From Primulina eburnea (taxonomy: Eukaryota > Streptophyta > Magnoliopsida > Lamiales > Gesneriaceae): 64,000 bases of DNA. Position 1 is the first letter of the stretch. Each line of letters opens with the position of its first letter. Positions 2,131-61,679 of this stretch are shown here, in pieces. A model generated the notes under the pieces. It worked only from the letters and a program-made list of their open reading frames with translations. It was not told the origin of the DNA and searched no databases. Where the stretch lies: NCBI RefSeq assembly GCF_022965805.1, contig NC_133108.1, positions 20,675,545 through 20,739,544 on the forward strand, read 5' to 3'. The position numbers and the translations under genes were made by a program.

Positions 2131-3044
2131 AGATGGGAATCCTCGTACGAAAAGAAAGGAAAACACAATTAAAATCGAACCGTGTCCTCAATTCAAATAC
2201 GAACAAGGATCGTTGTGTTGTCCCGATCTTTTAAAGCAAATCCGCAATCTTCACCACAAAACTACGTGGTTTAGTAATAAATGATCACAAAAGAACAACC
2301 AATAGTGAAATGAACCTTCAAAGAACTCGTCTTTGACAATCCGCGTAAGAAACGAACGACAAACACCACAAAGTTAAAACTTTAATTTGATAAGTTTTTT
2401 TGCACAAAGCTAAAGTCTTGAAAAATGTTTGAGAGAAAAGTCAAAAGTTTGATAAAATATTAATAATAATCTGAAAGTGTTCCAAATTTCGTCCAAAATA
2501 TGTTTACATACCCAAAAGATACTAAATCTAGTTGCCAAAATAATTAAAACTCTAAACTAGGAAAGTCAATATTTCTCGCAACTAGCATGCGCATATGCGC
2601 GCCCAATACTGGCGCATATGCACGGAATCCACTGTTCCGTTGCTCTGAAAATCCTTCATGCTCACATATGTGCGCCTCGTCTAGCGCATGTGCACGATAC
2701 CTTTTGTTTTGTTATCTTCGATGGTCACTTCTTGCGCATATGCACGGCATACATCACACATGTGCATGAGGCTCTCTGTCTTGCTTTTTGTTTTTCTGTG
2801 CACGGGCGTTCGGAAATTTTCATCATTTATTGCTTGAATAATGTTCCTATGACTTCCAAACTTACTTCCCTGCATCACGAACCCTTTGGCACTTTGCACC
2901 TTGCTCGAAAGCCCATCTTGATTGCTCACGAATCCATTCAATGCCTCCTTGAATTTCTTCAGTGGTCCCCTCGTAATAGGTCCCTCCGACAGCTCTAACG
3001 GATCCCATGCTTTCCTCGGAGCTTGTCCTACCATGATCATATCA
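2131..3044 (-). repeat. Element B 3' LTR
   Basis: LTR of a minus-strand chromovirus. The minus-strand 5' terminus TGATATGATC (3035-3044) follows a polypurine tract at 3045-3063. The opposite terminus reads AGATGGGAATC at 2131, where the solo copy B2 has TGATGGGAATC, so the terminal TG has mutated. Unusually, the first part of the LTR encodes the C-terminus of pol (see 2681-3136). It carries a three-unit CATATG hairpin array. It is about 92% identical by eye to B2 (11795-14928 without its insertions). Confidence 0.85.
2586..2775. repeat. Hairpin array, CATATG type, three units (B LTR)
   Basis: There are three units of paired, mutually inverted arms of the form GCGCATATGCGC. First-arm CATATG cores sit at 2592, 2665 and 2737 (periods 73 and 72). 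Second-arm cores follow 22-23 bp later, at 2615, 2687 and 2759. The second unit is CATATG/CATGTG and the third CATATG/CATGTG, so pairing is imperfect. The same layout recurs in other LTRs with other stem sequences. Confidence 0.85.
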
Positions 3045-3136
3045 TCCTCCCCTTCTTGAAAAGGATTTTTCCTAAAATCTTGTTCATCTCCTTCATCAAA
3101 CAACGACACATCACTAACATTAAAATTAGAACTCAC
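2681..3136 (-). pseudogene. B pol C-terminus reading through the polypurine tract into the LTR
   Basis: An open frame runs from integrase C-terminal sequence across the polypurine tract (3045-3063, read as acidic/Gly residues) into the LTR. The LTR-encoded part contains a GPITRG...KKFKEALNGF block, which I recognise as the usual C-terminal tail of plant gypsy polyproteins. The frame then enters the CATATG array before its stop at 2681. Copies of the tail in B2 (minus, about 14763-14928) and in Q (plus, about 17934-18060) confirm that it belongs to the LTR. The remainder of pol is broken, so this is a remnant. Assignment to the CRM or Reina clade is inference from the integrase wording. Confidence 0.75.
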
Positions 3137-4829
3137 GTTATACTCACCTGGTAGATCGAGTTTGTAGGCGTTGTCATTGATCCTTTCAAGGACTTATAAT
3201 GGTGCATCACCCCTAGGTAATAGCTTTGAACGTCTCTTCTCGGGGAACATTTCCGGCTGTAAAATGCAGCCACATCCAATCACCCTTTTCAAACAACACC
3301 TTTTACTTCCTTTTTGTTGTCTTGCTTGGTGTATTGCTCATTTTTCTTTTCTATGTTGGCCTTGACCTTCTCATGCAAACTCTTAACAAATTCAGCCTTC
3401 TTATTGCCATTTATGTTTAACCTTTCACTCATGGTAAAGACATCAAATCCAACGTATTTAAAGGATTAAAACCGTACAGAATTTCAAATGGCGAAAAATT
3501 GGTAGTAGAATGCACTCTACAGTTATAATCAAACTCGACAAATGGTAAACACTTTTTCCAATTCTTTAAGTTCTTTTTAAGAATAGCACGTAATAAAGTT
3601 CCTAACATTAACCTCAGTTTTTCCCATCAGTTTGAGGATGATAGGTCGTAGAAAATAGTAATTTAGTGCCAAGTTTAGCCCACAATGTTTTCCAAAAGTA
3701 ACTCAAGAATTTAACATCAAGATCAGAAACAATAATTCTAGGCATACCATGCAACCTAACGACTTCTCTAAAGAACAATTACGCAATGTTAGAAACATCA
3801 TCAGTTATATAACAAGCTATAAAATGTGACATCTTGGAAAATCTTTCCACAACAACAAATATAGAATCCCTCTCCTTCTTTGTCCTAGGCAACCCCAAAA
3901 CAAAATCCATAGAAATATCACACCCAAGGTTCACTAGGGACTGGAAGTGGTGTATACAAGCACTTATCACACACTAGTTCAACATCACGCTTCATATGTG
4001 GCCAACAAAAATGTTCTTGTAAAGCATTCAATGTTTTAGCCACAGCAAAATGTCCAATCAAACCACCCCATGTGCCTTCCTAACAAGTAATTCACGAATT
4101 AATGATTTAAGGATGTACAACCTATACATCTTCTCTAAACAAGAAACCATTATGCAATTAGAATTTTTCATGTGGACCATTATTACAAGTTTCAAACACA
4201 CCCTTAAAGTCCTAATTTAGCACATATAACTCTTTCACATGATCAAACCCTAAAATTTTAGAATCTAAAGTAGAAAATAGTGTGTACGTTCGTGATAGCT
4301 GGTCGGCCACTACGTTTTCCTTACCTTGCTTATATTTGATAATGTATGTGAATGTCTCCACCACTTGGCATGTCTCTTCTTCAACTTATGTTGTCCCTTA
4401 AGATGCTTTAAGGATTCATGATCCGTATGAATCACAAACTCCCTAGGCTCAAGTAGTGTTGCCACGTTTCAAGAGTCCTCACAAGCTCTTAGAGCTCCTT
4501 GTCATATGTTGGATAGTTAAGCACTGCTCCATTAAGCTTCTCACTAAAGTACGCCACCGGCCGTCCTACTTGCATAAACACTCCACCAATACCTACACCT
4601 GAAGCATTTCATTAAATTTCAAAAGTATTAGCGAAATCAGGCAAAACAAGTAAATGAGTATTAATTAATTTTTTCTTAATATTATTAAGACTTCTCTTGC
4701 TCCTCGTCCCAATGGAATGGAACGTTCTTCTTAATCAACGCGGTCATCGGTGCTGCTAGTGTGCTAAAATCCTTTAGAAACCTCCTATAGAAGCTTGCAA
4801 GACCATGAAAACTTCGTACTTGACCAACA
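3137..4829 (-). pseudogene. B pol: integrase and RNase H, degenerate
   Basis: Minus-strand gypsy pol without an intact frame. Integrase catalytic-core text is clear at 3779-3970 ([18 protein letters not shown] and [15 protein letters not shown]), which contains the first catalytic Asp. The RNase H region lies around 4280-4500 ([24 protein letters not shown] residues), and the RT/RH connection reaches 4829. Stops and frameshifts interrupt all domains. The coding sequence continues at 6173 after solo LTR S. The [10 protein letters not shown]...DRFSKM wording is typical of chromoviruses of the CRM/Reina side rather than the Tekay-like E/F/J elements. Confidence 0.85.
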
Positions 4830-4834
4830 GTAGT

Positions 4835-11794: not shown

Positions 11795-12390
11795 TGATGG
11801 GAATCCTCATACGAAAAGAAGGCAAACACGATTAAAATCGAACCACGTCCTCAATTCCAATATGAACAAGGATCGTTGTTGTGGGGACCCGGACGCTAAT
11901 CAAGTTCTTAATCATCATTGGGACTAATTAATCAATTATAAAACAGGGTCTAAAATTTTTTTTAAAATGCGGAACGTAGTGACATCAAACTAATATACAA
12001 CTCAGTATTTAATAAAGTACAAGTCCTGTACCGTCTACAATTCATTAAAACTAAAGTTCAACATCTAAATATCAAGTGTCGAAACTCTATATACATCCAA
12101 GTCCGAAGTATCCACTCTATCACGATCTCTCCTCATCTCCTGGACCCTGATCTTGCCCCACCTGTTGTCATGTACACATACAGACAAGACAACAGCCGGA
12201 TAACTCCGGTGAGAATAAATCCCAGTATAAATCAACGAAACATGCAATCATATAAACAAATATAAAGCATGTAATCAGGTAACAGATATATGTATCAAAA
12301 TCTGAAACATAAACAATCATAAAACTGCCTAACATATACGTGACTCCACGTCTCAGACTAGACTCGATCCTAGTCTAGGGATCCCGGTTT

Positions 12391-12524
12391 CCAAATGTGG
12401 TGTTCCTATATCGAATTCCGTAATAGAAGGAACCCTGATCCTATTACTCGATATAACCAAATATGGTGTTCCTATATCGAATTCTGTAATAGAAGAATTC
12501 CAATCCTATTTACTCGATATAACC
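12391..12524. repeat. 67-bp direct duplication in M
   Basis: Two adjacent copies of about 67 bp each begin CCAAATGTGGTGTTCC and CCAAATATGGTGTTCC and end ACTCGATATAA. They differ at several sites. A second, looser duplication follows at about 12585-12715 (GACATCGTGCAATGT twice). Confidence 0.8.
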
Positions 12525-13434
12525 AACATCCGGTATCCTGACCTAACCGTCATGGACTGTAGCTCTATCGCTAATATTCTTATCTTGAGACATCGTGCAA
12601 TGTGCCCGTGGCGATCCCGCCACTATCAGGCACTTCCGTCCCAAGATTTCTATACTATCTTGTGACATCGTGCAATGTTCCCGTGATCAGGAACTTCTGT
12701 CACAAGATTTCTTGTCTGATACTTGCTATCTATAATTCAAGAGAACAAGTACATCAATCAAATCAATGCAAATATCAATGTAATAAAGTAAAGTATGTGA
12801 TTTAGGAAAACTCAAGTCTAAACCGACTCAAGTCGAGCTCCCAATACCACATTGACTTATACCTTTCTTTCGTTGGTTTCTGGCTCAGTCGAAGTCCTGA
12901 ATTCACAGTCTCTCTGGCAATGACAATATCAATAATCTCATGTCAATATACCTTTCAAATCAATAACAATCTGATCAATCTGGATTTAATTCAAAATCAC
13001 CGGCATAACGGTACAATTTCAATATCCCCCTCAATACAATATCCTCAGATCACAGTTACAATCTATAACCCATATTCAATACAATCCGTAATCCAATCAC
13101 AATTCAAATCTATCTGGTATAAATCAATATACCCTAAAAATTCATAACAATTCCATAATCAGTCCGTTTCTCAATCTGACTTCGATTCTACGATGTCTAA
13201 CATGTCAAGAACATCATATATGAATTCCATTCAATTCTGACAATAGCATAATTTCAAAGCATGTCAAAACGTAGTAAACTTACGTCCAGTTGTAGCCTAC
13301 GTTGCTAGGAACTCGGTATCGAAGTCGGATTTAAAATCAGACGGACGGATTGATCGTAAATCAATTTTGGAGTCAAGGATCAAAGCTTTCCCCTCTATTT
13401 CTTTTTTCCCTTTTCTGAGGAAAGCTTGCATGTT

Positions 13435-13503
<69 letters not shown>
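13435..13503. repeat. TA/CA-TA microsatellite in M
   Basis: Nearly uninterrupted TATATA with three CA interruptions. The short frames reading IYIYIY in both directions across it are not genes. K LTRs have a much shorter TA run at the matching place (near 56070 and 61310). Confidence 0.9.
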
Positions 13504-13504
<1 letters not shown>

Positions 13505-13547
13505 CGTAACATGCAAAATGGCAAATGGCTCACTCTTGGCCAAACAC

Positions 13548-13836
13548 GTCTAGCGCATATGCGCGAGACATTCTGTCTCGGCACGTAGCTTCACGGGGAC
13601 TCGCGCATATGCGCGACACTCTTCCGCGCATATGCGCGAGGATTTCTTCACAACTCTCGGGTTGTGTCGCGCATGTGCGCGAATCCAAGTCGCGCATGTG
13701 CGCCAACCTTTCTGGATTGCTCGCGCATGTGAGCGCTTAAAGTCGCGCATGTGCGCCGATGCTACTGTCTTGCATCATGGGCTACTGCCTTACTCGCGCA
13801 AATGCGCGCCTACTCTTCGCGCATATGCGCGAGACC
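13548..13836. repeat. Hairpin array, CATATG type (M)
   Basis: CGCGCATATG/CGCGCATGTG arms occur at 13602/13625, 13668/13691, 13722/13744 and 13795/13818. The arm-to-arm offset is therefore 22-23 bp throughout. An unpaired arm sits at 13553. Unit spacing is 66, 54 and 73 bp. In LTR orientation the array lies about 125-410 bp from the 5' end, the same place as in N, L and K. Confidence 0.85.
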
Positions 13837-14317
13837 TTCGGCTCTCGCCCATACATTTTCATACATATTCTTATTTCGTGTCCCGATTAATCCTCTCATA
13901 ATCATATCAAATTATAATTCAATAATTACAGATTATTAGGATTAAATTTCCGGGCATTACAGTTGTGTTGTCCCGATCTTTTGATTCAAGAAAATGCGCT
14001 ATCTTCACCCCTAAACTACGTGGTTTAGAAATAAACGATCACAAAAGAACAACTGATATTCAAACGAACATTCAAAGAACTCGTCTTTGACCATCCGCGT
14101 AAGAAAACGATCAAGAAACGCCACAAAGTTAAAACTTTGATAAGTTTGATTTTTGCAAAAACCTAAAGCCTTGAAAAGTTTGATAAACTATCAATAATAA
14201 TATGAAAAGTGTGCAAAATTTCGTCCAAAATATGTTTACATACCCAAAATATACCCAATCTAGTTGCCAAAATAATTAAAACTATAAACTAGAAAAGTCA
14301 ATATTTCTCGTAACTGG

Positions 14318-14503
14318 CGTGTGTTTATGCACGCCCAATACTCCCCCATATGCGCGGAGTCATCTGTTGCTTGCCTCTGAAAATCCTTCGTGCACGCATA
14401 TGCGCGCCTTGTCTAATGCATGTGCGTGATACCTTCTGTTTTGTTATCTTCGGTGGCCACTTCTCACGCATATGTGCGGCATACATCGCGCATGTGCACG
14501 AGG
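14318..14503. repeat. Hairpin array, CATATG type (B2)
   Basis: Three units match the array of the B 3' LTR, with cores GCATATGCGC, CGCATATGTGC and CGCGCATGTGC and several decayed arms (for example TTTATGCACGCC at the start). It lies in the same LTR position as 2586-2775. Confidence 0.75.
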
Positions 14504-17412: not shown

Positions 17413-17752
17413 TCACCGACCTCCAAAGCCGTTCATAATTGGTCACAAGACATTTAGCATACCTCAAAAATAAAATATTTTCTCATTTTGAACGTCGAAC
17501 ATACTTACATGGCGTTGAGGGATTCGTTGGATCTCGTTTGGGGCCACTACTGCACGTACTAATATGAGTTCAAACACTTATCTTGCATAACTTATACGTA
17601 TTATTCATGCTGACACCCAAAAATGACAAATTTCCTTATAACGTCCTAAATCTCTCGGGAGTCGAGCTTGTTTAATCGTCGTACAAAACCATGACATCGA
17701 ACCCCAAAACAATCTTTATATGAAGTGTGAACCTTTCCCTAAACATGGAAGA

Positions 17753-17870
17753 CACGGACCCCGTGTACACATCTGAGTCTGGGTCCATGTAGCTTCGGCA
17801 ACTCAACCCACTGAATTAACAAAGGCACGGACCCCATGTCAAGGTCCGGCTCCGAGTCCATGGTAAACCA
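17753..17870. repeat. Hairpin array, CACGGACC type, two units (E LTR)
   Basis: CACGGACCCC starts at 17753 and 17826 (period 73), each followed by decayed inverted partners (GGGTCCATG, GAGTCCATGG). This is the counterpart of the four-unit arrays in F. Confidence 0.75.
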
Positions 17871-17933: not shown

Positions 17934-18662
17934 TGATGTGAATCTAGCCAGCCACTATGCGTTCCAAGAACCAATCCCGAGAGGACGCTTGAAGATGTTG
18001 AATGTTGCACTTCATCCAACCAATGAAAGCTTGGAAACAAGGCTCGAAGGGTTCGGGTTGCATCACAATGAAGTAGAAGTTGACCTAGGCTACACGGACG
18101 TGTACACGGACCTGTACACGGGGTCCGTGTCCCTTACATTCGAGATCAAGATTTACAGAGCCTACACGGACCCCACTCCGGACCTGTACACGGGGTCCGT
18201 GTCCTTTACGAATTGGAGAGAATATTTTTCTTAAATTAGAGTTATAATTATTTTGGTTAGAGTTTTAATTATTTTGGCAAGTAGATTTGATATCTTTAAA
18301 AATGCAATCTTTTATATTTAGGGTTTTGTTACCTATATATGCTAGACTACCATGTAAACTTTTAACTTTTGTTCATTATTGATTTGTTATCAAATTTGTG
18401 AGTTTTTTTCTCTCAAACTTCTTCAAGGCTTTAGCTTTGTTCAAAATCAAACTTATCAAAGTTTTTAACTTTGTGGCGTTTGTCAATCGAATATCACGAG
18501 GTTTGCCAAGGGCGGGTTCTTTGGAAGGTCTCTTGAACGCGATTGTTTCTATCGTTGATTAATTGTTGCTAGACCGCGTGATCTAGAGGCGATTATCACA
18601 CCTATCAATTACTTGTTTCAAAGATCAGGACAAATCAAGATCTCGTGGGCGGGATCGTATCA
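17934..18662 (+). mobile_element. Solo LTR Q (B-related) in E LTR
   Basis: A 729-bp solo LTR runs from TGATGTGAATC to GGGATCGTATCA. It has a perfect target duplication CAACA (17929-17933 and 18663-18667), in plus orientation. Its termini and its LTR-encoded pol tail (EPIPRGRLKMLNVAL at about 17970-18015) match the B LTR family. Instead of the CATATG array of B, it carries two units of the CACGGACC array, with starts at 18093 and 18165 (period 72). This array is otherwise seen here in the E/F LTRs. Confidence 0.9.
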
Positions 18663-18786: not shown

Positions 18787-20654
18787 TGTAAGGCCTTAGA
18801 TTATATCATTGTAATCCGAAATTATTTAATTGACAAATTGACATGATTATTGAAGGAAAAGCCCTAAGGGAGACATGAGAAAGCATGGAATACATGTGAC
18901 GCGAGAAGACCTCGCGCATATGCGCGGAGAAGAGGCGTGCATATGCGCGAGCAGCCAATGCCGAGGCAGAAGACATCGCGCATATGCGCGAGACTAGGTG
19001 GGCATATGCGCGAGCTGGTGAAATTCAAGTGCCGAGACAGAGAGTCTCACGCATATACGCCGGTGTTGGATGCGCATATGTTCGAGAAGTGCTGGACATA
19101 AATTTAGAAGAGGACACATGTCTTGCCATGCAATAAATGATAAGCTTCTTCATTCAACTTCAGAAGTTCAGTCAAGAACCGAGACTCCATGGTTGAATCT
19201 TTAAGTTTCCTTAGATTTTAAAATTTTATTGTGCAAGATCCGGTCGTCCGATTTTCAATGTGAGTTTAGTTCTGTGCTTCTCTCGTCAAGAGCCTCAAAT
19301 GGATGTTACTTTTATTACTTTCCTGCATAGTTCTAAAGTTGGAAGTTGGAGAAATCATAGTTTGATTGATATTATGTGTTCTTGAGATAATGGTAATCGT
19401 ATAATCAAAATCAGATCGAAGAGCGGACCATGTATGCTATTGTTATTAATTTTCAGCCTATAGTTGAATGGGTTTGTGCAGAACTTAGAGTTGTGGCTTA
19501 TATTTGTTGATGATTATGAGTTGTTGAGATTGGCCTCTTCTTGTTTTCATTAGTGGGATCTCGAAATTGTGCCGTTATGCCGTCGAAACGTACTTAGAAT
19601 GAGGTTTCTTGCTTGAGTTGTATGTTGATTGTGTCTATCGCAACATGAAATTCCAGATTTGGTATTGAAGGCTTCGAACTCGAGAATTCAACTTCGAAAT
19701 CGGTAGAAGAACGAGCCAAAGCCAAACCCTGAGAAAAGAAATATATAAATCAATGTTAAACCGGGATAGATAACTCGAGTAAGATATAACTCAAGTTTAC
19801 CGAAACCACATACTTACTTGTTATTGTTTTGATATATTTGAACTCTTTGAATGTACGTGCTTGTTCTATTGAGTTATAGAAAAGCATGGAGTACAAGATA
19901 GATATCGTAAAAGAGTCTTTGACAGATGTGTCAAGTCACTGGACGTTTGGTTTATATCGATGCGCTTTGGAGAAGATCGACTCGTATTGTAGATACTCGA
20001 TATAGTGTGTGGAAGTTCGGGAATAAGAACGTACCACCATCTAGAAGGGAAGAGTAGGTGGGAGACTTGTTACGTTCTTGTTCAAATCGGGATCCCTAGA
20101 TAAGAGTCAAGTTTAAAGAGTTTGATTTACAGCTTTGTATCAATTTATGTTTTCTTAGACTACGATACATGTTGTTTGACAAATGTTTATGCTTTTGTAT
20201 ATGTGTATATGAAATGCATGTATACATTGTTTATACTGGGAAATATATTTCTCACCGGAGTTATCCGACTGTTGTTGTGTTTGTATGTATGCATGACAAC
20301 AAGATAACAGATGAGACATGATCAAGGTCGACAAGAGAATGAAAGATCGAGATTAGAGTGGTGATCCGGGCTTAGATGTAGAACTGGTTGTTCAACACTG
20401 ATATGTGATTGATAAACACTAGTTTGTTATGATTTTATTTTGAACAAGTTTTGTACCTTGGATCATGTTGTAGATATTGAACTTGATCTTGTAAATTAAA
20501 TAAAATGAAACATTACTTGTTGTATTATTTTGTACACTTGTTTATGAGGTGTTCAACTTTAAAAGAAAATAAAAAATTCGACCTAGCTTATTTAATTGAT
20601 CCATTTAATCCCAATGATGATTTAAGAAAATGAGTTAGCGTCTGGGTCCCCACA
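18787..20654 (+). mobile_element. Solo LTR N in E LTR
   Basis: An 1868-bp solo LTR runs from TGTAAGGCCTTAG to TGGGTCCCCACA with target duplication AAAAT (18782-18786 and 20655-20659). It is a close relative of the L LTRs (31803, 33490) and shares its 3' end with M and K. A three-unit CATATG hairpin array lies 120-300 bp from its start. No coding sequence is present. Confidence 0.93.
18909..19088. repeat. Hairpin array, CATATG type, three units (N)
   Basis: Arm cores lie at 18917/18940, 18981/19003 and 19052/19075. The stem of unit 1 is CTCGCGCATATGCGCG against CGTGCATATGCGCGAG (15 of 16 pair, the exception being a G-T). Units are separated by the spacer CCGAGGCAGAAGAC or CCGAGACAGAGAGTC. A very similar spacer separates the unrelated stems of K. 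Confidence 0.85.
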
Positions 20655-22973: not shown

Positions 22974-25096
22974 TGTAACACTCGTGACTGAATTTCATAA
23001 TTAGAGCAGAAGCTTTTAAATATAATTTGGAGAAAATGTGTAATTTTACAAAAATTAGGCAGCATCTCCCCGCAAATAGGACATGCCACCTAACTCAAGC
23101 AACACATAAAACACATACAAAAGATTTCCATATCCATCAAATACCATTGAATGCAGTAACTACACATATTTCTGATTCAAATACAAAACAAGATTTTCAA
23201 TATTTCCCGAAATAACCAAAAGCTTAACATATCAAAGTAGCATCCAACCACTATCTCCAAAGTTTGGCATATTCCCTTCTCTCGCTTTGACAATTCAGGA
23301 ATGATCAGACTTTTTTACCTGTGCCTGCATCACATGAACATAACTTGAATGAGTATAAAACTCAACAAATGGAATCAATACTATAAATGTACATATATAT
23401 AATTTTATTGTAAAACGTAAAATGTATAGCCTCAATTTCATTTTGTTTAAAAACATTATCCATCTTATTTCGTAAACGTCGAATCATCATTAATATCATC
23501 TGTCAAGAATCATAATACAACAATACATAGGTATGATATTTATTTAATTGATTAACTGAAGAATTGATAGTTCTTATAAGATAGTTCATTATTTGTTAAC
23601 CCTCTTCGTAAAAACGAATCTTATAGGAGGGACATGTACCTCTGCATAAAATGCATCTTATAAGAGAGCACATGTTTTCATCATTAATTGACCAATTACA
23701 TTGCGGATTTAGAATTGTCAGAGACAACACCGCTACTATCACTATCAAGTTAATCATTCAATCATATAAAACTTCATTCAGACATTTTATCAAACACATT
23801 AGAGGCATCATTTAAAGTTTAACTCCTTTCATTCAAAAATGAATATAATTGCACTACCATATATACATATTTACATATATATCATGAATGGAATTTGAAA
23901 GGAGTTAACGTCATAAAATCATCAAAACTCATACATATAGGATAATGTGATGTGTTGAATAAATGATTCCACTTACTACACTTGGAGCACTTGGTTTCCT
24001 AAACCTTGACGATGATCCTACAACAATAAACCCAATAACTAACCATAAACACCCAAATAATAATCTTAACCATTTAATCCAATACATCAATCATAACTAT
24101 CATCCCCAAACTTCACCATCTATAAATAACTCAAGAACAAGAACAAAAACCACTTACCTTAGCTCCTTGCACTAAAAAGGTGAAGTTCCAACTCCGGATT
24201 GAAGATTATTTGCTTGATTGAAAGAGAGGATAAGAAGAAGATGAAGAACCCTGGCCTAGAATTGATGGAGAAGAGAAATGAAGAGAAGGGAAATGAAGAA
24301 AATGAGAGTCTCATTCGATTTTATGCATTAATTCACCCAAAACACGCTTTTCCATTGTACAGGGCACTAGGGCAGTCAAGTTTTACCGCCCTAGCGCAGA
24401 ACTTACTATCCGAAACCCAAAAATACAGCTCCAGGCACGTCGGTGCAGTCAAACATTACCGCCCTATCGCAGTATCTGTTGTCCCAATGCGTGCTCTGCA
24501 CACAGCTTCTCCAAAGATTGCTCAAGAAATGCCTCTTCCCTTCATGATCTGAGAAAGTGGTAAACATGAAAGTTGTAGCTCTATGTCTTGGCTTGCATCT
24601 CTGATTCACCCCATGTCATTTGAAGGACTGAGTAAAAAGTTATTCTCAATCTTCAAACATGTGTCACTGGAGGAATGATGATACATACGACACATTTCGG
24701 GGCGCTTTTGGCTTGTCATCCACAATGATTTGAACAAAACTCCAAACATGAAAGTTATAGCCTTATGTCTTATCTTTCTAATGGAAGTGGCCTCACATCA
24801 TTCGGGTCAATATAAAAAATATTATGCTAAAAACCACAACTACTGCCACAGTTTTATACCGTTTCAGCACTTCCATTACTTATTTAGCTCAAAATCAACT
24901 TTCTATTTTACCCATACATTCTCTGTTTCATTCTATATCATTCAATACCATTCATATCATATCTTGAAGCCATAAACCATCATCATTACATCACATATTC
25001 CAAACGATCATCTAATAAACCATAAAAATAATAATGACCATAATTAATCATAATCATTACCTTACGTCATATGCATACGAATGTGTGGGCGTTACA
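22974..25096 (-). mobile_element. Solo LTR O in E integrase
   Basis: A 2123-bp solo LTR reads TGTAACACTCG to GGGCGTTACA on plus, flanked by ATAGC (22969-22973) and ATAGA (25097-25101). E and F share AATAGC/AAAAGCAACTTCGTC here, so the right copy has mutated once. Minus orientation is inferred from the TGTAACGCCC start on that strand and from the position of a two-unit hairpin array nearer that end. It is not closely similar to the other LTRs in the window. Confidence 0.85.
24361..24472. repeat. Hairpin array, CTAGGGC type, two units (O)
   Basis: Unit 1 is CTAGGGCAGT, loop CAAGTTTT (8 nt), ACCGCCCTAG, with 9 of 10 pairs plus a G-T. Unit 2 starts 71 bp later (GTCGGTGCAGT, loop CAAACATT, ACCGCCCTATC) and is more decayed. 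This is a fourth stem sequence with the same loop length and period. Confidence 0.7.
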
Positions 25097-31802: not shown

Positions 31803-32250
31803 TGTAAGGCCTGAGATTTTATCATTTAAACCGAGATTAATAAATTGACAAATCGACGTGATTATAGAAGGAAAAGCCCGAGGGAGACATGAGGAAGACA
31901 AGGGATATGTGTGAGGCCAGAAGACCTCGCGCATATGCATGGAGATGAGACGCGGATATGCGCGAGCAGCCAAACGCCGAGGAAGAATACCTCACGCATA
32001 TACGCGAGACTAGGCGTGCATATGCGCGAGCAAGTGAATTTTCTATGCGTCGAGACAGTAGGTCTCGCGCATATGCGCCAGTATCGGACGCGCATATGCA
32101 CGAGAAGTGCTAAATAAAAAAAATGAGACACAAGTATAGCCATGCATATCAACATGTAATCATTTTCATTCCTTTCAGATTTCAGCCAAGAAAACCGAGG
32201 AACCTCCACGGAAATTCTCAAGCTTTTCATATTTTAGAAATTTGATTGTG
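31803..32250 (+). repeat. Element L 5' LTR remnant
   Basis: It is nearly identical to the first 445 bp or so of the L 3' LTR (33490 on), including its CATATG hairpin array (units at 31928, 31993 and 32066). It breaks at TTTGATTGTGC and passes directly into integrase coding sequence. The rest of the LTR, leader, gag, PR, RT and RNase H are deleted. Confidence 0.88.
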
Positions 32251-39926: not shown

Positions 39927-40278
39927 GCGGAGAGGTCCTCGGCCAGGTTCACCGACTTCCAAACCCATTCATAATTTGGTCACAAGTCAATTAGCATACC
40001 TCAAAAACTTAAACATATTTTCTTTGCACGTCAAACATATTTACTTGGCGTTGAGGGATTCGTTGGGCTTCGATCGGGGCCGTTGCTGCACATACTGATC
40101 ATGGATTGACATGCTTAACTTGCATACTTAGACGTAGGTAAATCATGCTCACTTACGAGTTCATTAAATTCTTAGGACGTTCTACAATTCCCCATGACTC
40201 GACTTTGTAAATCATTGTACTAACCCATGACGTCTAACCTCAAAGCATAATAAATTTTCCTTCCCCAAAAATGAAGGA

Positions 40279-40535
40279 CACGGACCCCGTACCTACATCC
40301 GTGTAGGGGTCCGTGTAGGCTCTGGACATTGACACCGAAGGAAAACAAAGGCACGGACCCCGTGTCAGGGTCCGGGTGAGGGTCCGTGTAGGTACTGTAA
40401 AAGGACTAATCGGGAAGGGAAGGGGCACGGACCCCGTGTATGGGTCCGGAACCAGGTCCGTGTACCTACTGTAAAGACGCACCAAGGGAAAACAAAGACA
40501 CGGACCCCGTGCTCGGGTCCGTGTGGGGGTCCGTC
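40279..40535. repeat. Hairpin array, CACGGACC type, four units (F 3' LTR)
   Basis: CACGGACCCC starts at 40279, 40352, 40426 and 40499 (periods 73, 74, 73). Each is followed within about 17-20 nt by GGGGTCCGTG or a close variant, giving 8-10-bp stems. The F 5' LTR has the same array at 47979-48235. Confidence 0.88.
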
Positions 40536-41986
40536 TGCACACTGTACGAAGAAACCTGCGAGAAAACTTATGCACATGCCTACACACCCAAATTGACACT
40601 TGAACACGATGATTCAACACCTTAAGGACACCATAACATTGCATAAAACTTATATAAACACTTCAAGATACGACGTCCACCATGCTACCCAATACAGCGC
40701 TAATTGGCAATTGACATCAACCGAGTTCCTACGACTTTAAACTAATTCAAACACCGAACGACGTCCAACAAAACCTTGAGACCTACAACAAACCTCAATA
40801 CTAACATACTCATATGCAGCGACGATCGCCCGTCGATTTCCAACGAAGCCTGCAACATAAAACTTCAAAAATACAATGGTACCAAACTTTTATTAAAATT
40901 TCAGTTTGAGCAGTCACACGAAAAATATCATAACTCTCTCATTTTTTGTCCAAAAATCTTGAATTTTATGTCAAATCGAAGGTATCGAAAAGTTCTACGT
41001 TTTTTCCGTTGAAAGTTTTCCCAAAATATGAACAGAAAAATCGCAGTTTTGACATGAACAGTAAAAACGAGTTTTAGATCTAAAAATTTTCCTTCGAGAT
41101 TGATCCGATCCATGATCCGCTCAAACTACTATCATCATACATAACTTTTACGCATAAAAACAACGCAATTCATTTTATGACTTGATCGACACAGCAAGAA
41201 CAGAATATACGTGCCTTTTTGATATTTAAAATACCGTAGCGACGACACCGAAGCGGAGATGGAGCGAGGCTAGATCGGTGACGAACGTGGCACCGTTTTC
41301 TTGCAATCAAATTCACCGAAATCTTGCTGGAAAAGCCTAGGGGAGGGGCGACTGCTATAAGAGTATAGAACCCTAGTTTTTCTTTCTCTCAAAATAATAA
41401 AACTTGAATTGAGACTTGTGTGTGTGTTTTGAGCGCTACAGGTGTGTGTAAACGTGTGTAATTTGTGTGTGTAGCGTGTGTTTTAAAATATTATGAGACT
41501 AACTTTTGCTAATTAATAATTAACCTTACTAACCAAGGTGCTAATAAAAAGGTTGACTCAAATAACAATTCAATTAAAAATACTATTCCCACTCATCTTT
41601 AAATAAGGTCCCCTAATTAAATTAAAGTGCACACTTGCTAAACTTTTAAAAGTTTTAAAGTCTTAAAATTACCAAATAAATAATTTAGGCTTAAAAATGC
41701 TAAAACTCCATAAATTATTTAAAATGCCCCCAACTCAACTTAAAATAGAATACCACGTTTTAAATTGCCAAAATCGTCACCGGGTCTGTTCCTCAATCCC
41801 GCTTCGAATAATCGCCTGAAACATGAAACTCGACAAACGTTTTAACGTGCATCAACATAGACATGAATAATTTAAAATAATGAGCTTTCATAAATTATGC
41901 ATGGATAAAACTCATTTAAACTAATTAAATGATTTAATAATTAAATGAATGCATGGGTTATACGTGTACTGAATTTGGGCACTACA

Positions 41987-46902: not shown

Positions 46903-49171
46903 TGTAACGTACCGTACTTCTCATACTTAAAATTTGCGGAAAAATTAAAAATTTTCTTAAATAAAAACATCCACACGGTCGTCACCCATCATTCATAACA
47001 TATCTTTAAAATCAACCATCACAATTAAAATTTGCTAAAAGAAAAGCTGTCTCACAACCAAACATAAAATCAGAGTATAAAAGTTTTCATGCTTAAAATC
47101 TTAAAATAACGTAGGCGGTCCTCGGGTCTAGCCTCCTACTCAGTCCAAGCCTGCCCCTTGGTCGCCACCTCCCGTCTCCCCATCGACATAGTCACCTGCA
47201 TCGATCAAGTCTAGTGAGTCTAAAGACTCAACACGTATAAACTGGAATAACGAGTACTACATAATAAAATCACATGCAACTTTAAAATAGGACATACATA
47301 ACTTGAAACTTGAACTTGCGTATTAAAACTTGAACATACGTACATACATACTTCAACGTGCCATAACTTAAACTTTTCATAAACATGCTGCATACTTGAA
47401 CATACTTGAACATACATAACTTCATCATTTTGCGTAGAGGATGTTTCAAAGCAAGTGACCCATACATAATAAACGCCTGATCAGACACACCACAGTACTG
47501 GGCTGACAGGGACATATCCACTGTCGCATACATGAGATCCCCGTTCATGATTTAACGGGCTGGTTGGTCGCCGTTCATAATTTAACGCTTTCCAACCACG
47601 ATCTAACCCGTTCATAATTTAACGGGGCGGAGAGGTCCTCGGCCACGTTCACCGACTTCCAAACCCATTCATAATTTGGTCACAAGTCAATTAGCATACC
47701 TCAAAAACTTAAACATATTTTCTTTGCACGTCAAACATATTTACTTGGCGTTGAGGGATTCGTTGGGCTTCGATCGGGGCCGTTGCTGCACATACTGATC
47801 ATGGATTGACATGCTTAACTTGCATACTTAGACGTAGGTAAATCATGCTCACTTACGAGTTCATTAAATTCTTAGGACGTTCTACAATTCCCCATGACTC
47901 GACTTTGTAAATCATTGTACTAACCCATGACGTCTAACCTCAAAGCATAATAAATTTTCCTTCCCCAAAAATGAAGGACACGGACCCCGTACCTACATCC
48001 GTGTAGGGGTCCGTGTAGGCTCTGGACATTGACACCGAAGGAAAACAAAGGCACGGACCCCGTGTCAGAGTCCGGGTGAGGGTCCGTGTAGGTACTGTAA
48101 AAGGACTACTTGGGAAGGGAAGGGGCACGGACCCCGTGTATGGGTCCGGAACCAGGTCCGTGTACCTACTGTAAAGACGCACCAAGGGAAAACAAAGACA
48201 CGGACCCCGTGCTCGGGTCCGTGTGGGGGTCCGTCTGCACACTGTACGAAGAAACCTGCGAGAAAACTTATGCACATGCCTACACACCCAAATTGACACT
48301 TGAACACGATGATTCAACACCTTAAGGACACCATAACATTGCATAAAACTTATATAAACACTTCAAGATACGACGTCCACCATGCTACCCAATACAGCGC
48401 TAATTGGCAATTGACATCAACCGAGTTCCTACGACTTTAAACTAATTCAAACTCCTAACGACGTCCAACAAAACCTTGAGACCTACAACAAACCTCAATA
48501 CTAACATACTCATATGCAGCGACGATCGCCCGTCGATTTCCAACGAAGCCTGCAACATAAAACTTCAAAAATACAATGGTACCAAACTTTTCTTAAAATT
48601 TCAGTTTGAGCAGTCACACGAAAAATATCATAACTCTCTCATTTTTCGTCCAAAAATCTTGAATTTTATGTCAAATCGAAGGTATCGAAAAGTTCTACGT
48701 TTTTGCCGTTGAAAGTTTTCCCAAAATATGAACAGAAAAATCGCAGTTTTGGCATGAACAGTAAAAACGAGTTTTAGATCTAAAAATTTTCCGTCGAGAT
48801 TGATCCGATCCATGATCCGCTCAAACTACTATCATCATAGCAAGAACAGAATATACGTGCCTTTTTGATATTTAAAATACCGTAGCGACGACACCGAAGC
48901 GGAGATGGAGCGAGGCTAGATCGGTGACGAACGTGGCACCATTTTCCTGCAATCAAATTCACCGAAATCTTGCTGGAAAAGCCTAGGGGAGGGGCGGCTG
49001 CTATAAGAGTATAGAACCCTAGTTTTTCTTTCTCTCAAAATAATAAAACTTGAATTGAGACTTGTGTGTGTGTTTTGAGCGCTACAGGTGTGTGTAAACG
49101 TGTGTAATTTGTGTGTGTAGCGTGTGTTTTAAAATATTATGAGACTAACTTTTGCTAATTAATAATTAACC
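46903..49171 (-). repeat. Element F 5' LTR, cut by I
   Basis: It is near-identical to 39203-41525, with about 20 substitutions. A deletion of about 54-57 bp lies near 48838, where the left LTR has ATACATAACTTTTACGC. It carries both hairpin sets (47540-47626 and 47979-48235) and the TG-rich tract (49063-49130). It ends at TTAATAATTAACC, where I begins. The remainder should lie beyond the window. Confidence 0.9.
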
Positions 49172-50488
49172 TGTAACGCCCCGAAAATTTTAAGGTCCAC
49201 GTGAACCACATGCGCAAATTATTAAATTCTCCTGTATTTTAATTAAATGTTTTAATTTCATGAATTAATTATGTTGTGCATAATTGATATGTTTAAATCA
49301 TATTTCCTACATGGTTGCATTAAAATGGTATTTCTAGGATTATTCAAGTGACGATCGAGGAACGGGGACAGAGGGCTAAAAATGTAAAAGATTTTTATTA
49401 AATAGTTATTTTTAACTATTTAAAATGCGGTCGATGTTTTTAAGTAAATTTTTGAAAGTATCGAGTTGTGAGGTGATTTTATACGCCGGAACGTAATTTT
49501 ATCGGTATTGGCTTTTCAAATAAAATTCGAGCTTTCGAGCATCCCGGCTATTAAATTCATATTTTTATTTAAAAGAAAACTTTGATATTATGTTAATTAA
49601 TCCAAAATAGACTAATGGGCCTAATTTAATGGTTTATTAGGCCTAAAGTCTAGATTAGAGATTAAATTAGTATTTAAAGTGTAAATAAATTGCAAACCCT
49701 ACCATACCAATTATTGAAGTCTCGGCCACCCCATATTAAATTCTGAAAACTCCCCTCCCCTCTCAAACAACTCACGGCACAGCACCCACAAAATATTAGA
49801 AAGAGTTTCAAGGGAATTTTCAAAGGCAACCAAGCAAGGTAGAAGCTTTCGTCGCGTCCCGTTCTTCGCCGTCAACGGATTTTCGAGCGTATAAAACGCA
49901 AAGGCACACCCTAATCTCCTTTTCTCATCCATCATGTCATATTATTTAGTTAAATTGTGGGATGCATGAAGCACATGATTTCTTTTTCAGAAACTCGAAA
50001 CTTTTGCATGTATTGCCTTCGGTTGTTGAGTTTTGTTACAGGAAAATTGGTTCAATTATAAAAAGGGGCTGCCATGATGTCTAGGCTTAGATCATTAAAG
50101 AATTCGAGTGTTTTAAAAGTCCTACACACACACCCAAGTCGACAGAAACAAAAGGGAATCAAGGAAACCAGAACAAAAACCAAACTGCATACACTGTCAT
50201 AGAGTTTGGGGTGTCGGGTTCCCTGTGCCTAGGCTGGTTGGGTCTGGGATGGGGCTAGGACTCGGCCAGGGTCCGTCTTGGGTCAAAGGGGGAGTCCTAG
50301 CCATGCTAGGACTCGGTCTGGAAGGGGCAGGGAGGAGTCCTTGCACGCAAGGACTCCCACCCGAGAAGCTGCGCGTTTGGGGTGCAGACTTTGTGCCATC
50401 GGTTGAGGGTAGGGACTCAGCCCAGGGCTCGTGGGCTGGGTTAGAGCAAGTCCTTAGGGTCCTTAGAGAGTGTACAACAGGTGGGTTC
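49172..50488 (+). repeat. LTR-like element I, cut by J
   Basis: It starts TGTAACGCCCCGAAAATTTT inside the F 5' LTR, a typical gypsy LTR 5' terminus, and runs 1317 bp until the J LTR. The first half resembles, at low level, the U3 of the A LTRs (GAACGGGGAC block, TTTTATACGCCGGAACG). A possible TATA box (TTATAAAAAGG) lies near 50055. No coding sequence is recognised; the 50225-50572 frame is GC-rich LTR text. The right end is outside the window, so I cannot say whether I is a solo LTR. Confidence 0.7.
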
Positions 50489-54413: not shown

Positions 54414-55110
54414 TGTGGGGACCCGGACGCTAATCAAGTTCTTAATCATCATTGGGACTAATTAATCAATTATAAACAAGGTCTAAAAATTTTTTCTTTT
54501 AATATACAAAGCGGAAACGTAATGTAATTAAATTCAAATTACATATTAAACATAAACATACACATCCTGTATTATCTACAAGGATTCAACTAGGTTCAAC
54601 TACATATCAGTGCTGAATCCTAAGTTGCTTCGAAGCCCGGATCTCCACGCTATCTAGTCCAGCCTCTTTCTTTTCTTGACCCTGAACCTGCCCCACCTGT
54701 TGTCATGTACACATACAAAACAAGACAACAGCCGGATAACTCCGGTGAGATATAAATATCCCAGTATAAACAATGTAAACATGCAATCATATAAAAACAT
54801 ATATAAAAGCATATAAGCAATAATCATAACATGTATCAAATCAGAACATGAAGCAATATCAAGAATAACTCTTATTCTAAACATGTACCATCATCAGGAA
54901 CATAATCAACATCAAATAATATAAATCAATATCAAGCAATGAATCACACTCAGACTCAAACTCAACTCAAACAACGCGTCATCTCAGACTCAACTCAACT
55001 CTAACCTAGGGATCCCGATGTCTGGATATAGGTAATTATATCGAATCTCAGTTGATAGGAATGAATCAATCCCTAAACGGCATCGATATAATTAATATCT
55101 CCAGTGTCTG

Positions 55111-55300
55111 GGCGAATCAGCCGCAGAATTGACGACTCAGTCAATAACCTCACGAATCAGCCAGTAATTAGGCGAATCAGCCAATAATCAGACAACTCAG
55201 CCTGTAATTAAGCGAATCAGCTTAAGTTTAGACGAATCAGTCTATAACCCGACGAATCAGCCGGTGACTAGGCGAATCAGCCTATGACTCAACGACTCAA
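55111..55300. repeat. 20-bp minisatellite in K LTR, ten units
   Basis: Consensus is about RRCGAATCAGCCNRTAAYTA. Units begin every 20 bp exactly from 55111 (GGCGAATCAG, GACGACTCAG, CACGAATCAG and so on) to 55291. The other LTR has the same ten units at 60351-60540. N and L lack it. Confidence 0.93.
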
Positions 55301-56130
55301 AAATCAATACATGCAGTCAGTATCTAAGCAAATCAATCAATGACTAGCGAATCAGCAGTCATTACATGCGGTGGCTATAAATCAATAGACAACAAATATC
55401 AATCTCATCAATTACAAGAATCAATGTAATAAACAAAGTATGTGATTTAGGGAAACTCAAGTCAAACCTTCCTCGAGTTGTGCAATCCCAACACAACATT
55501 AATTTATACCTTTCACTCTGATACTCTGACTCTGTCGAAGTCTCGAACCCAAGCCTGTCAATACTCAATCTGGCAATGACAATATCGATATTCTGTATTA
55601 ATATTCAAATCAAATCACAACATCTCTGTTTTATCAAATTCTACCAGTACAATGGTACAATCTTGCGATACCAGTAATACCACTCCTGTATATACTAATA
55701 CCACTAATTTAAAATCAACCACTGTACAAATCTGACATCACATCTCAGTCAATTCCATTATGAAATTCATAACAATTCCATATTCAGTCCGTTTCTTAAT
55801 CTGACTTCGATTCTACGCTGTCTAACATGTCAAGAATAACATATCTGACGTATATTCAATTCTAACCACATCATAATTTCAAAACATGTTAAAACGTAGT
55901 AAAACTTACGTCCAGTAGTAGCCTACGTTGATAGGAACTCGGTACCGAAGTCGGATTTAAAATCTAACGGACGGATTGGAATAAAAAGGCGTAAGGATTT
56001 CTTTGAAAGATTCTCGACCTCCTTCCTCGATTTTCTCTCTTTCATTCTGAGGAGAATCGCTTGTTCTTATATATATATATACAAGTTGGTCGGTTAAAGA
56101 AACGTGGCTTGTTTTCACCATTTTCAGGCG

Positions 56131-56310
56131 GCGCTCGAGCGGTGCAAATCTACCGCTCGAGCGCGGCATGTTCTGCCCGTGTTCTTCCGGATTGCACCTT
56201 TGGCGCTCGGGCGGTCAAAAACTACCGCCCGGGCGCCAAGTCTTCTGCCCGAGACAATTTCTTGATGCACACTGGCGCTCGAGCGGTCACTTCCTACCGC
56301 TCGGGCGCCA
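56131..56310. repeat. Hairpin array, CTCGAG type, three units (K 3' LTR)
   Basis: Unit 1 is GCGCTCGAGCGGT, loop GCAAATCT, then its perfect inverse complement (56131-56164). Unit 2 (from 56202) and unit 3 (from 56273) have loops CAAAAACT and CACTTCCT, and 14- and 15-bp stems with one non-Watson-Crick position each. Unit starts are exactly 71 bp apart. Loops are all 8 nt. Confidence 0.93.
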
Positions 56311-56440
56311 GACTTTCTGTCCCCAAGTGGTATAAATCATATACTTGGTCCGATTATACTCATATTATCTTAACTCCAATAATCTCATGTTAATATAATT
56401 AAAATCTCATATTAACAGAATCAAGATCTTGGCCCTTACA

Positions 56441-57681: not shown

Positions 57682-58257
57682 CTAAGCACGGTTAACTCCA
57701 TCTCTCTGACTGAACTCAGATCTGAAATCTTATCAGGGGAAAACATGACTAACTTTCATATCATTGGTAAATCAGCCAATGATAGACTCAATTTTAGTAA
57801 ATCAACTGAAGACATAAGGAGTCATTCTGCTTCTTTCTGTACTAATCGAATTATAGTTAGTACGAATTATCAAGGAATTCTCAATCTAGAATCCTTATCG
57901 TACAGTACTCATCCCTTGGCCATCTCAGGTTCAATTCTCACCCTCTTCTAAAATTAATCTAGGGTAGCTCTGTACCTGATCCGCATATCAATACCCGTAA
58001 TGCAGTCCCAAACTCAGACATCATTGGTACAATACTAGCTACCATATATTCTAACTCGATCTCATTCTTATCCTACTGTAGTATACCAGATCTAACAGAA
58101 CTCACTGATACCAGATCTTTTCTCAAAGGAATAGAAACACATACTACAGTAACTAGGGATTCAACAAATAATGCATGGATCAATGCAAATTTTTTCAGAA
58201 ATAAAAATATGTGAAGCACCGGTATCCCTCAATACATATGCAGGATAATCAAACAAA
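57682..58257 (-). pseudogene. K protease remnant and deletion point
   Basis: On minus the protease active site reads RDTGASHIFISE (near 58210; DTG retained), followed by decayed protease and linker text with many stops. At about 57680-57700 this passes straight into the integrase zinc finger. RT, RNase H and the integrase approach are missing, a deletion of roughly 1.5 kb compared with F or J. Confidence 0.8.
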
Positions 58258-59366: not shown

Positions 59367-59653
59367 ATCTGAAACTCAAAAAGATTATTGACCCAATCCA
59401 ACACATCTGTTTCAATTCAATCTCCCTCCCGATCATCTTACTGCTGATCGAGAAGCAATTCAGATTCGTGCCCAATAATACATATTACAAAATCAAATCA
59501 GATAAATCAAGTAACATGTATTATATAAAGCAGTAAGCATGCTAGCAATCATAAGCAAGGAAAGAAAACCTCAATCTACCCCGCTCACTATCCTCTTCTA
59601 TCTCAATCTCAAGAATCTACAGTTCTAGTACCTACAGCTCTGATACCACCTGT
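59367..59653 (-). other. K leader and primer-binding site
   Basis: Minus TGGTATCAGAGC at 59637-59648, five bases from the 5' LTR, is a perfect initiator-tRNA-Met-type site. The leader of about 270 nt lies between it and the gag start. Confidence 0.92.
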
Positions 59654-61679
59654 TGTGGGGACCCGGACGCTAATCAAGTTCTTAATCATCATTGGGACTA
59701 ATTAATCAATTATAAACAGGTTCTAAAAATTTTTTCTTTTAATATACAAAGCGGAAACGTAATGTAATTAAATTCAAATTACATATTAAACATAAACATA
59801 CACATCCTGTATTATCTACAAGGATTCAACTAGGTTCAACTACATATCAGTGCTGAATCCTAAGTTGCTTCGAAGCCCGGATCTCCACGCTATCTAGTCC
59901 AGCCTCTTTCTTTTCTTGACCCTGAACCTGCCCCAGCTGTTGTCATGCACACATACAAAACAAGACAACAGCCGGATAACTCCGGTGAGATATAAATATC
60001 CCAGTATAAACAATGTAAACATGCAATCATATAAAAACATATATAAAAGCATATAAGCAATAATCATAACATGTATCAAATCAGAACATGAAGCAATATC
60101 AAGAATAACTCTTATTCTAAACATGTACCATCATCAGGAAAATAATCAACATCAAATAATATAAATCAATATCAAGCATTGAATCACACTCAGACTCAAA
60201 CTCAACTCAAACAACGCGTCATCTCAGACTCAACTCAACTCTAACCTAGGGATCCCGATGTCTGGATATAGGTAATTATATCGAATCTCAGTTGATAGGA
60301 ATGAATCAATCCCTAAACGGCATCGATATAATTAATATCTCCAGTGTCTGGGCGAATCAGCCGCAGAATTGACGACTCAGCCAATAACCTGACGAATCAG
60401 CCAGTAATTAGGCGAATCAGCCAATAATCAGACAACTCAGCCTGTAATTAAGCGAATCAGCTTAAGTTTAGACGAATCAGTCTATAACCCGACGAATCAG
60501 CCGGTGACTAGGCGAATCAGCCTATGACTCAACGACTCAGAAATCAATACATGCAGTCAGTATCTAAGCAAATCAATCAATGACTAGCGAATCAGCAGTC
60601 ATTACATGCGGTGGCTATAAATCAATAGACAACAAATATCAATCTCATCAATTACAAGAATCAATGTAATAAACTAAGTATGTGATTTAGGGAAACTCAA
60701 GTCAAACCTTCCTCGAGTTGTGCAATCCCAACACAACATTAATTTATACCTTTCACTCTGATACTCTGACTCTGTCGAAGTCTCGAACCCAACCCTGTCA
60801 ATACTCAATCTGGCAATGACAATATTGATATTCTGTATTAATATTCAAATCAAATCACAACATCTCTGTTTTATCAAATTCTGCCAGTACAATGGTACAA
60901 TCTTGCGATACCAGTAATACCACACCAGTATATACTAATACCACTAATTTAAAATCAACCACTGTACAAATCTAACATCACATCTCAGTCAATTCCATTA
61001 TGAAATTCATAACAATTCCATATTCAGTCCGTTTCTTAATCTGACTTCGATTCTACGCTGTCTAACATGTCAAGAATAACATATCTGACGTATATTCAAT
61101 TCTAACCACATCATAATTTCAAAACATGTTAAAACGTAGTTAAACTTACGTCCAGTAGTAGCCTACGTTGATAGGAACTCGGTACCGAAGTCGGATTTAA
61201 AATCTAACGGACGGATTGGAATAAAAAGGCGTAAGGATTTCTTTGAAAGATTCTCGACCTCCTTCCTCGATTTTCTCTCTTTCATTCTGAGGAGAATCGC
61301 TTGTTTCTTATATATATATACAAGTTGGTCAGTTAAAGAAACGTGGCTTGTTTTCACCATTTTCAGGCGGCGCTCGAGCGGTGCAAATCTACCGCTCGAG
61401 CGCGGCATGTTCTGTCCGTGTTCTTCCGGATTGCACCTTTGGCGCTCGGGCGGTCAAAAACTACCGCCCCAGCGCCAAGTCTTCTGCCCGAGACAATTTC
61501 TTGATGCACACTGGCGCTCGAGCGGTCACTTCCTACCGCTCGGGCGCCAGACTTTCTGTCCCCAAGTGGTATAAATCATATACTTGGTCCGATTATACTC
61601 ATATTATCTTAACTCCAATAATCTCATGTTAATATAATTAAAATCTCATATTAACAGAATCAAGATCTTGGCCCTTACA
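59654..61679 (-). repeat. Element K 5' LTR
   Basis: A 2026-bp LTR near-identical to the left one. Differences include an extra T before the TA run and GCCCCAGC for GCCCGGGC in hairpin 2. The minisatellite is at 60351-60540 and the hairpin array at 61370-61549 with the same 71-bp spacing. It is followed by the CGAAG duplication and J RNase H. Confidence 0.97.

Follow-up and report, generated by a model that had tools for sequence, protein, structure and literature searches.

Tandem arrays of inverted arm pairs with a period near 72 bp in nested retrotransposons of Primulina eburnea: candidate cis-regulatory arrays related in kind to Sirevirus motifs

Among the Ty1/copia retrotransposons of plants, the Sireviruses carry palindromic, high-copy motifs in their long terminal repeats (LTRs). 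These motifs form CpG islands, contain a CGG-CCG core and are followed by the TATA box on average 37 bp downstream; their sequence is family-specific with a shared signature, and further clusters are located near env (Bousios et al. 2010, PMC2829016). The palindromes of maize Sireviruses are hotspots of small RNAs and evolve fast (PMC5311732 and PMC10760457). Tandem repeats are frequent in the U3 region of retroviruses and were also found in the U3 of Tnt1 (PMC3601003 and PMC2829016), and VANDAL transposons harbor family-specific arrays of tandem motifs bound by VANC (Hosaka et al. 2017, PMC5735166). Here, we present the analysis of a 64-kb stretch of the Primulina eburnea genome (contig NC_133108.1, positions 20,675,545 to 20,739,544; termed the window in the following), which consists of nested LTR retrotransposons and contains arrays of inverted arm pairs with a period of about 72 bp. 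An initial annotation of these arrays knew of no named system that matches them; the view that none does is wrong, since the palindromic repeated motifs of Sirevirus LTRs described in PMC2829016 are close in kind.

The arrays are real and well organised. An ungapped scan of the window detected 29 GC-rich hairpins, compared with 0.75 ± 1.0 (maximum 4) in 20 dinucleotide shuffles; 24 of them are located in 13 arrays, two in a region termed K and three elsewhere. The 13 arrays were assigned to eight families, E, B, L, Q (with its relative q3), O, F, M and N (Table 1). With hairpin limits set by hand, 21 of the 26 spacings between successive hairpin centres amount to 72-74 bp, the other five being 53.5, 63.5, 64.5, 64.5 and 66 bp; these values are not all independent, because many arrays are copies of one another as LTR pairs. 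By family, the spacings are 72 and 72 bp in both LTRs of E, 66, 53.5 and 73.5 bp in B, 72.5 and 72 bp in both copies of L, 63.5 and 72, 64.5 and 73.5, and 64.5 and 73.5 bp in Q, 73, 74 and 73 bp in both LTRs of F, and 73, 73 and 72 bp in O, M and N, respectively. Some units pair poorly as delimited, namely most units of L, the first of O and the third of Q5. The recurrence of hairpins at near-constant spacing, as claimed by the initial annotation, is borne out by these counts except for its series K (71, 71): the centres in the array at 50230-50440 are 51.5, 42.5 and 82.5 bp apart, and the label K may mean another array. Matched by spacing, its M (66, 54, 73) corresponds to B of this study, its B (73, 72) to L and its N (64, 71) to Q. 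The distance of 22-23 bp that it gave for the arm cores of the CATATG type was confirmed.

A constant head precedes the variable arms. In a set of one array per family (23 hairpins, eight families), the motif CAG[AT][AG] occurs within 15 nt before the hairpin on the sense strand in 14 of 23 cases, compared with a mean of 1.58 and a maximum of 7 in 2000 runs with shuffled spacers; within 15 nt after the hairpin it was found in 3/23, and its background in the window is 4.2%. Agreement between families over the last 12 columns before the hairpin reaches 4.78, against 3.05 ± 0.11 and a maximum of 3.43 in 500 shuffles. The head is located on the upstream side throughout: coding frames give the strand of E, Q, F and L, homology gives that of B, M and N, and the strand of O was chosen by the head itself.

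The arms vary within a frame. That stem sequences differ completely, as had been noted earlier, is too strong a statement, since the CATATG, CTCGAG and CTAGGG arm types have a common GCGC-N4-GCG frame; the GGACCC type of F, M and N is different. The alignment of the arms covered 25 hairpins of E, B, L, Q, q3 and O and excluded F, M and N with their other arm type; it shows head and frame as common features. Pairs between the two arms are formed in 84.6% of 350 cells compared with 75.4% in shuffles, and the inter-arm covariation score of 0.317 (0.190 in shuffles) was reached by none of 500 shuffles, with the caveat that relatedness alone can beat shuffles. There was no excess of pairs changed on both sides (8/14, matched by 148/500 shuffles) or of further inter-arm pair types (116/500 shuffles). 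Sliding the partner by one to three columns lowered every pairing measure, and a slide of two still left about 65% paired because the arms are CG-repetitive. On this covariation score, the earlier view that architecture is kept while the arm sequence changes can be retained.

The arms are also symmetric in themselves. In the alignment, 79.4% and 84.0% of the self-pairs within arms are formed, with covariation of 0.271 and 0.227 (0/500 shuffles each), and self-pairs changed on both sides show no excess over shuffles (250/500 and 71/500). Among 64 unaligned arms, 39 contain at least five of six self-pairs, compared with 8.7% of random 17-mers of 70% GC; by family, these are 4/6 in E, 7/8 in B, 6/12 in L, 15/18 in Q and q3 together, 3/8 in F, 3/4 in N, 1/4 in M and 0/4 in O. 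In the GCGC types, inter-arm pairing and self-symmetry both show as constraints, and either of them may be primary.

Arrays and backbones assort independently, which supports the modular cassette suggested by the initial annotation. Arrays and flanks were compared by local alignment for 51 array pairs of different families, each score being set against the maximum of 100 shuffles. N is an F-like array on an L-like flank: with F it shares the array (118 vs 28) and not the flanks (21 vs 28; 28 vs 37), with L the downstream flank (196 vs 70 for L3; 152 vs 67 for L5) and not the array (23 vs 26; 18 vs 28). Arrays are shared and flanks are not in M and N (79 vs 23), B and L (58-60 vs 28-32) and E and O (41 vs 28). 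L and Q share the array (84-114 vs 28-36) with unlike upstream flanks and downstream flanks that are at most marginally similar, in L5 only (44 vs 37 with q3; 48 vs 45 with Q3). The downstream flank of E is shared with B (133 vs 37) and with the full Q LTRs (61-82 vs 36-38), and its array is not shared in plain alignment (29 vs 43 with B; 23-26 vs 30-34 with Q); head and GCGC frame are nonetheless common to these arrays in the anchored alignment. For B and Q, the similarity extends to part of the array and part of the flanks.

The spacers alone are similar between F and N (z 4.3; p 0.003, the lowest value that 300 shuffles can give) and also in Q3-F (p 0.003) and q3-F (p 0.007), although the arms differ; these are the only pairs with p<0.02 among the 51 comparisons, for which about one would be expected by chance. 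No similarity was found between the spacers of L and those of Q or B. Judged from these alignments, whole-array transfer is likely for N, and arm convergence is possible in the other array-sharing pairs. That N represents an inverted piece of the neighbouring M array is less likely, because the N array sits directly before the L-like flank. The reverse transcriptase (RT) frame 6113-6865, taken as belonging to L, shows 47-52% identity to the frames 44147-45409 and 53718-54356, which are 74% alike; this suggests that different clades carry arrays.

With respect to the position in the element, the array begins 119-129 nt past the LTR start in E, B and Q. A strict TATAWA motif follows within 75 nt of the array in three of the eight families (E 47, B 53 and M 32 nt; background 7.6% per 75 nt), and these are not three independent cases because E and B share a backbone. 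The earlier placement of the arrays in LTRs holds for E, B and Q and also for F, whose outer LTR ends are not fixed; in L and N the array comes after the 3′ end of pol, and O is unplaced. Arrays are not obligatory, as sequence and hairpin scans revealed no palindromic array between an LTR start at 50489 and CTATAAATAGG near 50849. The stretch 63645-64000 was grouped with 50489-50860 as an LTR start without a palindromic array ahead of CTATAAATAGG.

By analogy with the Sirevirus motifs, we regard it as somewhat better than an even chance (probability about 0.55) that these are swappable cis-regulatory, enhancer-like arrays of plant Ty3/gypsy LTR retrotransposons. Each unit of about 72 bp comprises a constant head that resembles ACAG[AT]AG; next come two GC-rich and in many cases palindromic sites, which form the inverted arms and are set about 22 bp apart where the type is GCGC, and a free spacer follows. 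The array is located in U3, about 120-130 nt past the LTR start in the best resolved elements, and its end lies about 50 nt before the TATA box in E and B. From the palindromes we infer binding of dimeric host DNA-binding proteins, which would drive transcription; the self-palindromy of the arms counts for such DNA sites, since it is explained by a dimer site and a plain hairpin has no need of it. Also in favour are the excess of hairpins, the place of the array in the LTRs of E, B and Q, the TATAWA motif downstream of it in E, B and M, the constant head, the independent assortment of arrays and backbones and the lack of a G·U bias in the sense strand. The arms turn over in concert, and arrays would move between unrelated backbones, perhaps via template switching in reverse transcription or via recombination.

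Several observations weigh against a regulatory array in U3. Five of the eight families lack a strict TATA motif within 75 nt of the array; in N it follows at 132 nt, and in Q, L, F and O none is present within 200 nt. F instead has TATAWA 120 nt upstream of its array, which may be part of a transcribed leader, and L and N have no resolved LTR start. Nor is palindromy a general property of the arms, as is evident from the counts for O, F and M. Measured from the main mode, the deviant spacings are off by 0.8, 0.65 and 1.8 helical turns, so that helical phasing is not clear. The ratio of observed to expected CpG, array versus surrounding repeat, indicates enrichment in the arrays of E (1.24/0.92), B (1.58/1.08), Q (1.79/0.89) and L (1.16/0.89) and not in that of F (0.85/1.16).

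The arrays might alternatively act as RNA, which we consider rather unlikely: regularly spaced hairpins would form in the 3′-terminal U3 copy of the genomic RNA, or in the leader RNA of F, and would serve packaging or stability or be diced into small RNAs. The inter-arm covariation speaks for such structures, and so do the RNA-like arrangement of a constant head beside a variable stem and the small-RNA hotspots at maize Sirevirus palindromes (PMC5311732, PMC10760457). If a sense RNA hairpin were under selection, G·U would be expected to exceed A·C among the sense-strand mismatches, but the counts are 26 and 28 in the 25-hairpin alignment and 21 and 21 in a wider set with F, M, N and K, in a test of low power because decay after insertion blurs mismatch counts. 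Moreover, the sense-strand mismatch of E units 1 and 2 is A·C, unit 2 in the 5′ LTR being an exception, many arms are self-palindromic, and an Rfam search of the window gave no match at gathering scores. The regularly spaced RNA hairpins considered in the initial annotation found no support here, within the limited power of the mismatch counts. Quite unlikely, too, is an origin of paired arms and equal spacing in copying errors alone, in which RT template switching would correct quasi-palindromes and expand tandem units with no function involved. Concerted arm evolution within arrays, the varying unit number between families and the lack of an excess of both-side pair changes are in line with this. 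After insertion, the rate of change in the arms equalled or exceeded that of the flank in four of five same-family copy comparisons (E 2/96 vs 20/1842; L 24/96 vs 48/455; Q3-q3 12/96 vs 20/271; Q3-Q5 13/96 vs 186/1591), the exception being F (0/128 vs 17/2011). Integrated copies do not protect their arms, so their upkeep probably comes from the active lineage. Rapid change after insertion is not specific to copying errors either, being likewise expected where selection is confined to active elements. Copying errors leave unexplained the recurrence of a constant head at one set distance whatever the arm type, the shared GCGC frame and the repeated place in E, B and Q.

Very unlikely is an anti-silencing address similar to that of VANC, in which the arms of each family, as its own code, would bind a sequence-specific protein removing silencing marks. 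Family-specific tandem motifs that evolve together are the VANC pattern (PMC5735166), and CpG transitions, to which 13 of the 24 arm changes in L belong, are found in the arms in three of five copy comparisons, as if the copies were methylated. However, the ten frames scanned for domains contained gag-pol domains only and no VANC-like gene, and VANC motifs are described as arrayed in one orientation, the string “palindrom” being absent from the main text of PMC5735166. A broader address system appears unlikely as well. The head would recruit a common factor, the variable, covarying palindromic arms would constitute a family code read by diversifying host proteins, and families of different clades would swap whole arrays; with such a swap, an old backbone could evade silencing or acquire a new activation programme at a single stroke.

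The elements of the window contain Ty3/gypsy gag, protease, RT, RNase H and integrase domains in the ten translated frames of the Pfam scan, with a chromodomain in F; the domains named are RVT_1, RT_RNaseH, Integrase_H2C2, SH3_Tf2-1 and Chromo. F shows the features of a Ty3/gypsy chromovirus, namely Pfam domains including Chromo at 42023-43555 and a primer-binding site (PBS) at 46889-46902, the type expected being presumably that of tRNA-Met. This assignment includes E by gag and PBS only and L by the RT frame and pol end taken as its own, and does not extend to B, O, N and M. As clade name for the Ty3/gypsy elements of the window we assume Tekay/Del. For the RNase H-integrase frame at 61712-63646, the closest among the best 120 of 7970 relatives is from Primulina tabacum (83% over 74% of the query), followed by Cinchona calisaya (68%); going by these relatives, the host would probably be an asterid, perhaps from the Gesneriaceae.

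The internal part of E (56441-59653) is just 3.2 kb long; it includes gag (58258-59154) and sequence that matches the end of pol in Q, and E is probably non-autonomous. Its LTRs contain 20-bp tandem repeats, of GGCTGATTCG type in the sense strand, at 60353-60525 and 55113-55285, for which Tandem Repeats Finder gave 8.6 and 6.7 copies, a difference that may only reflect the program's reporting. Within their 3′ part, the LTRs of E, B and Q hold a second hairpin (CCGGCTGTTGT...ACAACAG; 59933-59976, 12157-12200 and 35005-35048), which is conserved in sequence, in contrast to the variable arrays. Q is a plus-strand element with LTR starts at 18787 and 33490, and q3 is a Q-like LTR fragment (31803-32256). 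F lies on the minus strand; in sense orientation its LTRs have their 3′ ends at 39203 and 46903, and their 5′ ends are not fixed. The elements of M, N and O are truncated or unplaced. The L elements (1550-14930) appear to be arranged in tandem and to share LTRs, with the solo LTR B inserted. Twice in L, the pol C-terminus, the array, the LTR end and a PBS-like site follow in succession. A simple LTR pair was ruled out for L because the repeated stretch holds pol C-terminus, array and PBS-like site, and we read it as pol-LTR-PBS junctions of tandem elements. At 31326-31480, two 76-bp tandem copies, 98% alike, are close in length to the array period; no GC-rich hairpin is listed there.

Table 1. 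Positions in the window of the resolved LTRs and the hairpin arrays (TSD, target-site duplication).
Feature	Position	Strand	Characteristics
E 5′ LTR	59654..61679	-	array ~130-310 nt from LTR start; TATAWA 47 nt past array; adjoining PBS of TGGTATCAGAGC type; TSD CGAAG
E 3′ LTR	54414..56440	-	98.8% identity to 5′ LTR
B solo LTR	11880..13961	-	TSD GTTGT; inserted in L; strand from homology to E
E array, 5′ LTR	61367..61550	-	three 72-bp units; GGCGCTCGAGCGGT / ACCGCTCGAGCGCC-type arms; 8-nt loops
E array, 3′ LTR	56128..56311	-	same three units as 5′ LTR array
B array	13553..13833	-	four arm pairs of CGCGCATATGCGCG type and a half unit; TATAWA 53 nt past array
L array, upstream copy	14318..14503	-	CATATG type, decayed
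L array, downstream copy	2586..2771	-	CATATG type, decayed; after pol C-terminal coding sequence
Q array, 5′ LTR	18911..19087	+	CATATG type
q3 array	31926..32104	+	within Q-like LTR fragment 31803-32256
Q array, 3′ LTR	33609..33787	+	~120 nt past LTR start at 33490
O array	24361..24473	-	two decayed units; GCGCTAGGGCGGT-type arms; strand from head motif only
F array, 5′ LTR	47978..48236	-	four units; CACGGACCCC / GGGGTCCGTG arms
F array, 3′ LTR	40278..40536	-	F-type array
M array	17752..17863	-	two GGACCC-type units; TATAWA 32 nt past array; strand from homology to F
N array	18092..18202	+	two GGACCC-type units ahead of L-like downstream flank; apparent chimaera
K region	50234..50440	+	GGACTC/GAGTCC hairpins, irregular spacing; weak member, outside family counts

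Searches beyond the window revealed no relatives in viral contigs, either by protein search or by four DNA patterns. In bacterial assemblies (e.g. Mycobacterium, Streptomyces, Geminicoccus, Solirubrobacter and Labilibacter), seven contigs (L001-L007) encode RTs 61-74% identical to those of the window; they are probably contamination from eukaryotes, mostly plants. Hairpin scans of 12 foreign-retroelement loci from such assemblies, and tandem-repeat scans of seven of them, revealed no case of the 72-bp paired-arm design. L003 has 51-bp repeats (5831-6055) about 245 nt past the inferred LTR start and directly ahead of TATAAATA, and L007 a quasi-palindromic array (701-805; 37/19-bp units) directly ahead of TATATT; these U3-type tandem arrays just before a TATA-like box were counted for the cis-regulatory reading. 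L001 (63-bp units) and L004 (35-bp units) also contain tandem repeats, whose place in the element is not settled. Going by the two cases L003 and L007, tandem arrays that evolve fast and lie immediately ahead of the TATA box may be the more general feature, with the paired-arm design as a local form. A literature search with the arm sequences gave, among the matches listed and judged by title, unrelated papers. The arms contain XhoI or NdeI sites, so that primers are the likely source of these matches. No palindromic arrays in Ty3/gypsy LTRs are described in the titles and abstract openings of the matches listed, a search whose coverage mostly leaves out subscription papers.

Taken as LTR control arrays, the structures would be ordinary in kind and new in form, owing to the constant head, the covarying inverted arm pairs and the exchange between unrelated backbones. 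They would extend palindromic control arrays of the Sirevirus kind to a second LTR superfamily and add a constant head and the independent assortment of array and backbone. This makes testable a modular exchange of regulatory regions among plant retrotransposons, and the reading of palindromes by the host as DNA sites or as RNA. Repeats of 72-75 bp are known from SV40 and murine leukaemia virus. As far as the available sources describe them, the VANC target arrays resemble those of the window in that both consist of noncoding tandem motifs, which diverge jointly from family to family, but VANDALs are DNA transposons with their own VANC gene and motifs in one orientation. The U3 repeats of Tnt1 and retroviruses are likewise tandem regulatory repeats that vary between relatives, and differ, as described, from the covarying inverted arm pairs found here. 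The Sirevirus motifs, in the available description, are matched by palindromic, high-copy arms in E, B and Q, less so in L, N, F and M, and not in O; as to their CGG-CCG core, CGG and CCG occur in the arms of E, O, F, M and N and CGCG instead in those of B, Q and L, a comparison made by inspection and carrying no statistic. In contrast to the Sireviruses, the host elements here belong to Ty3/gypsy and not to Ty1/copia, the unit is a composite of a constant head and two sites placed as inverted arms with a period of 72 bp, and one and the same array type is found on unrelated backbones.

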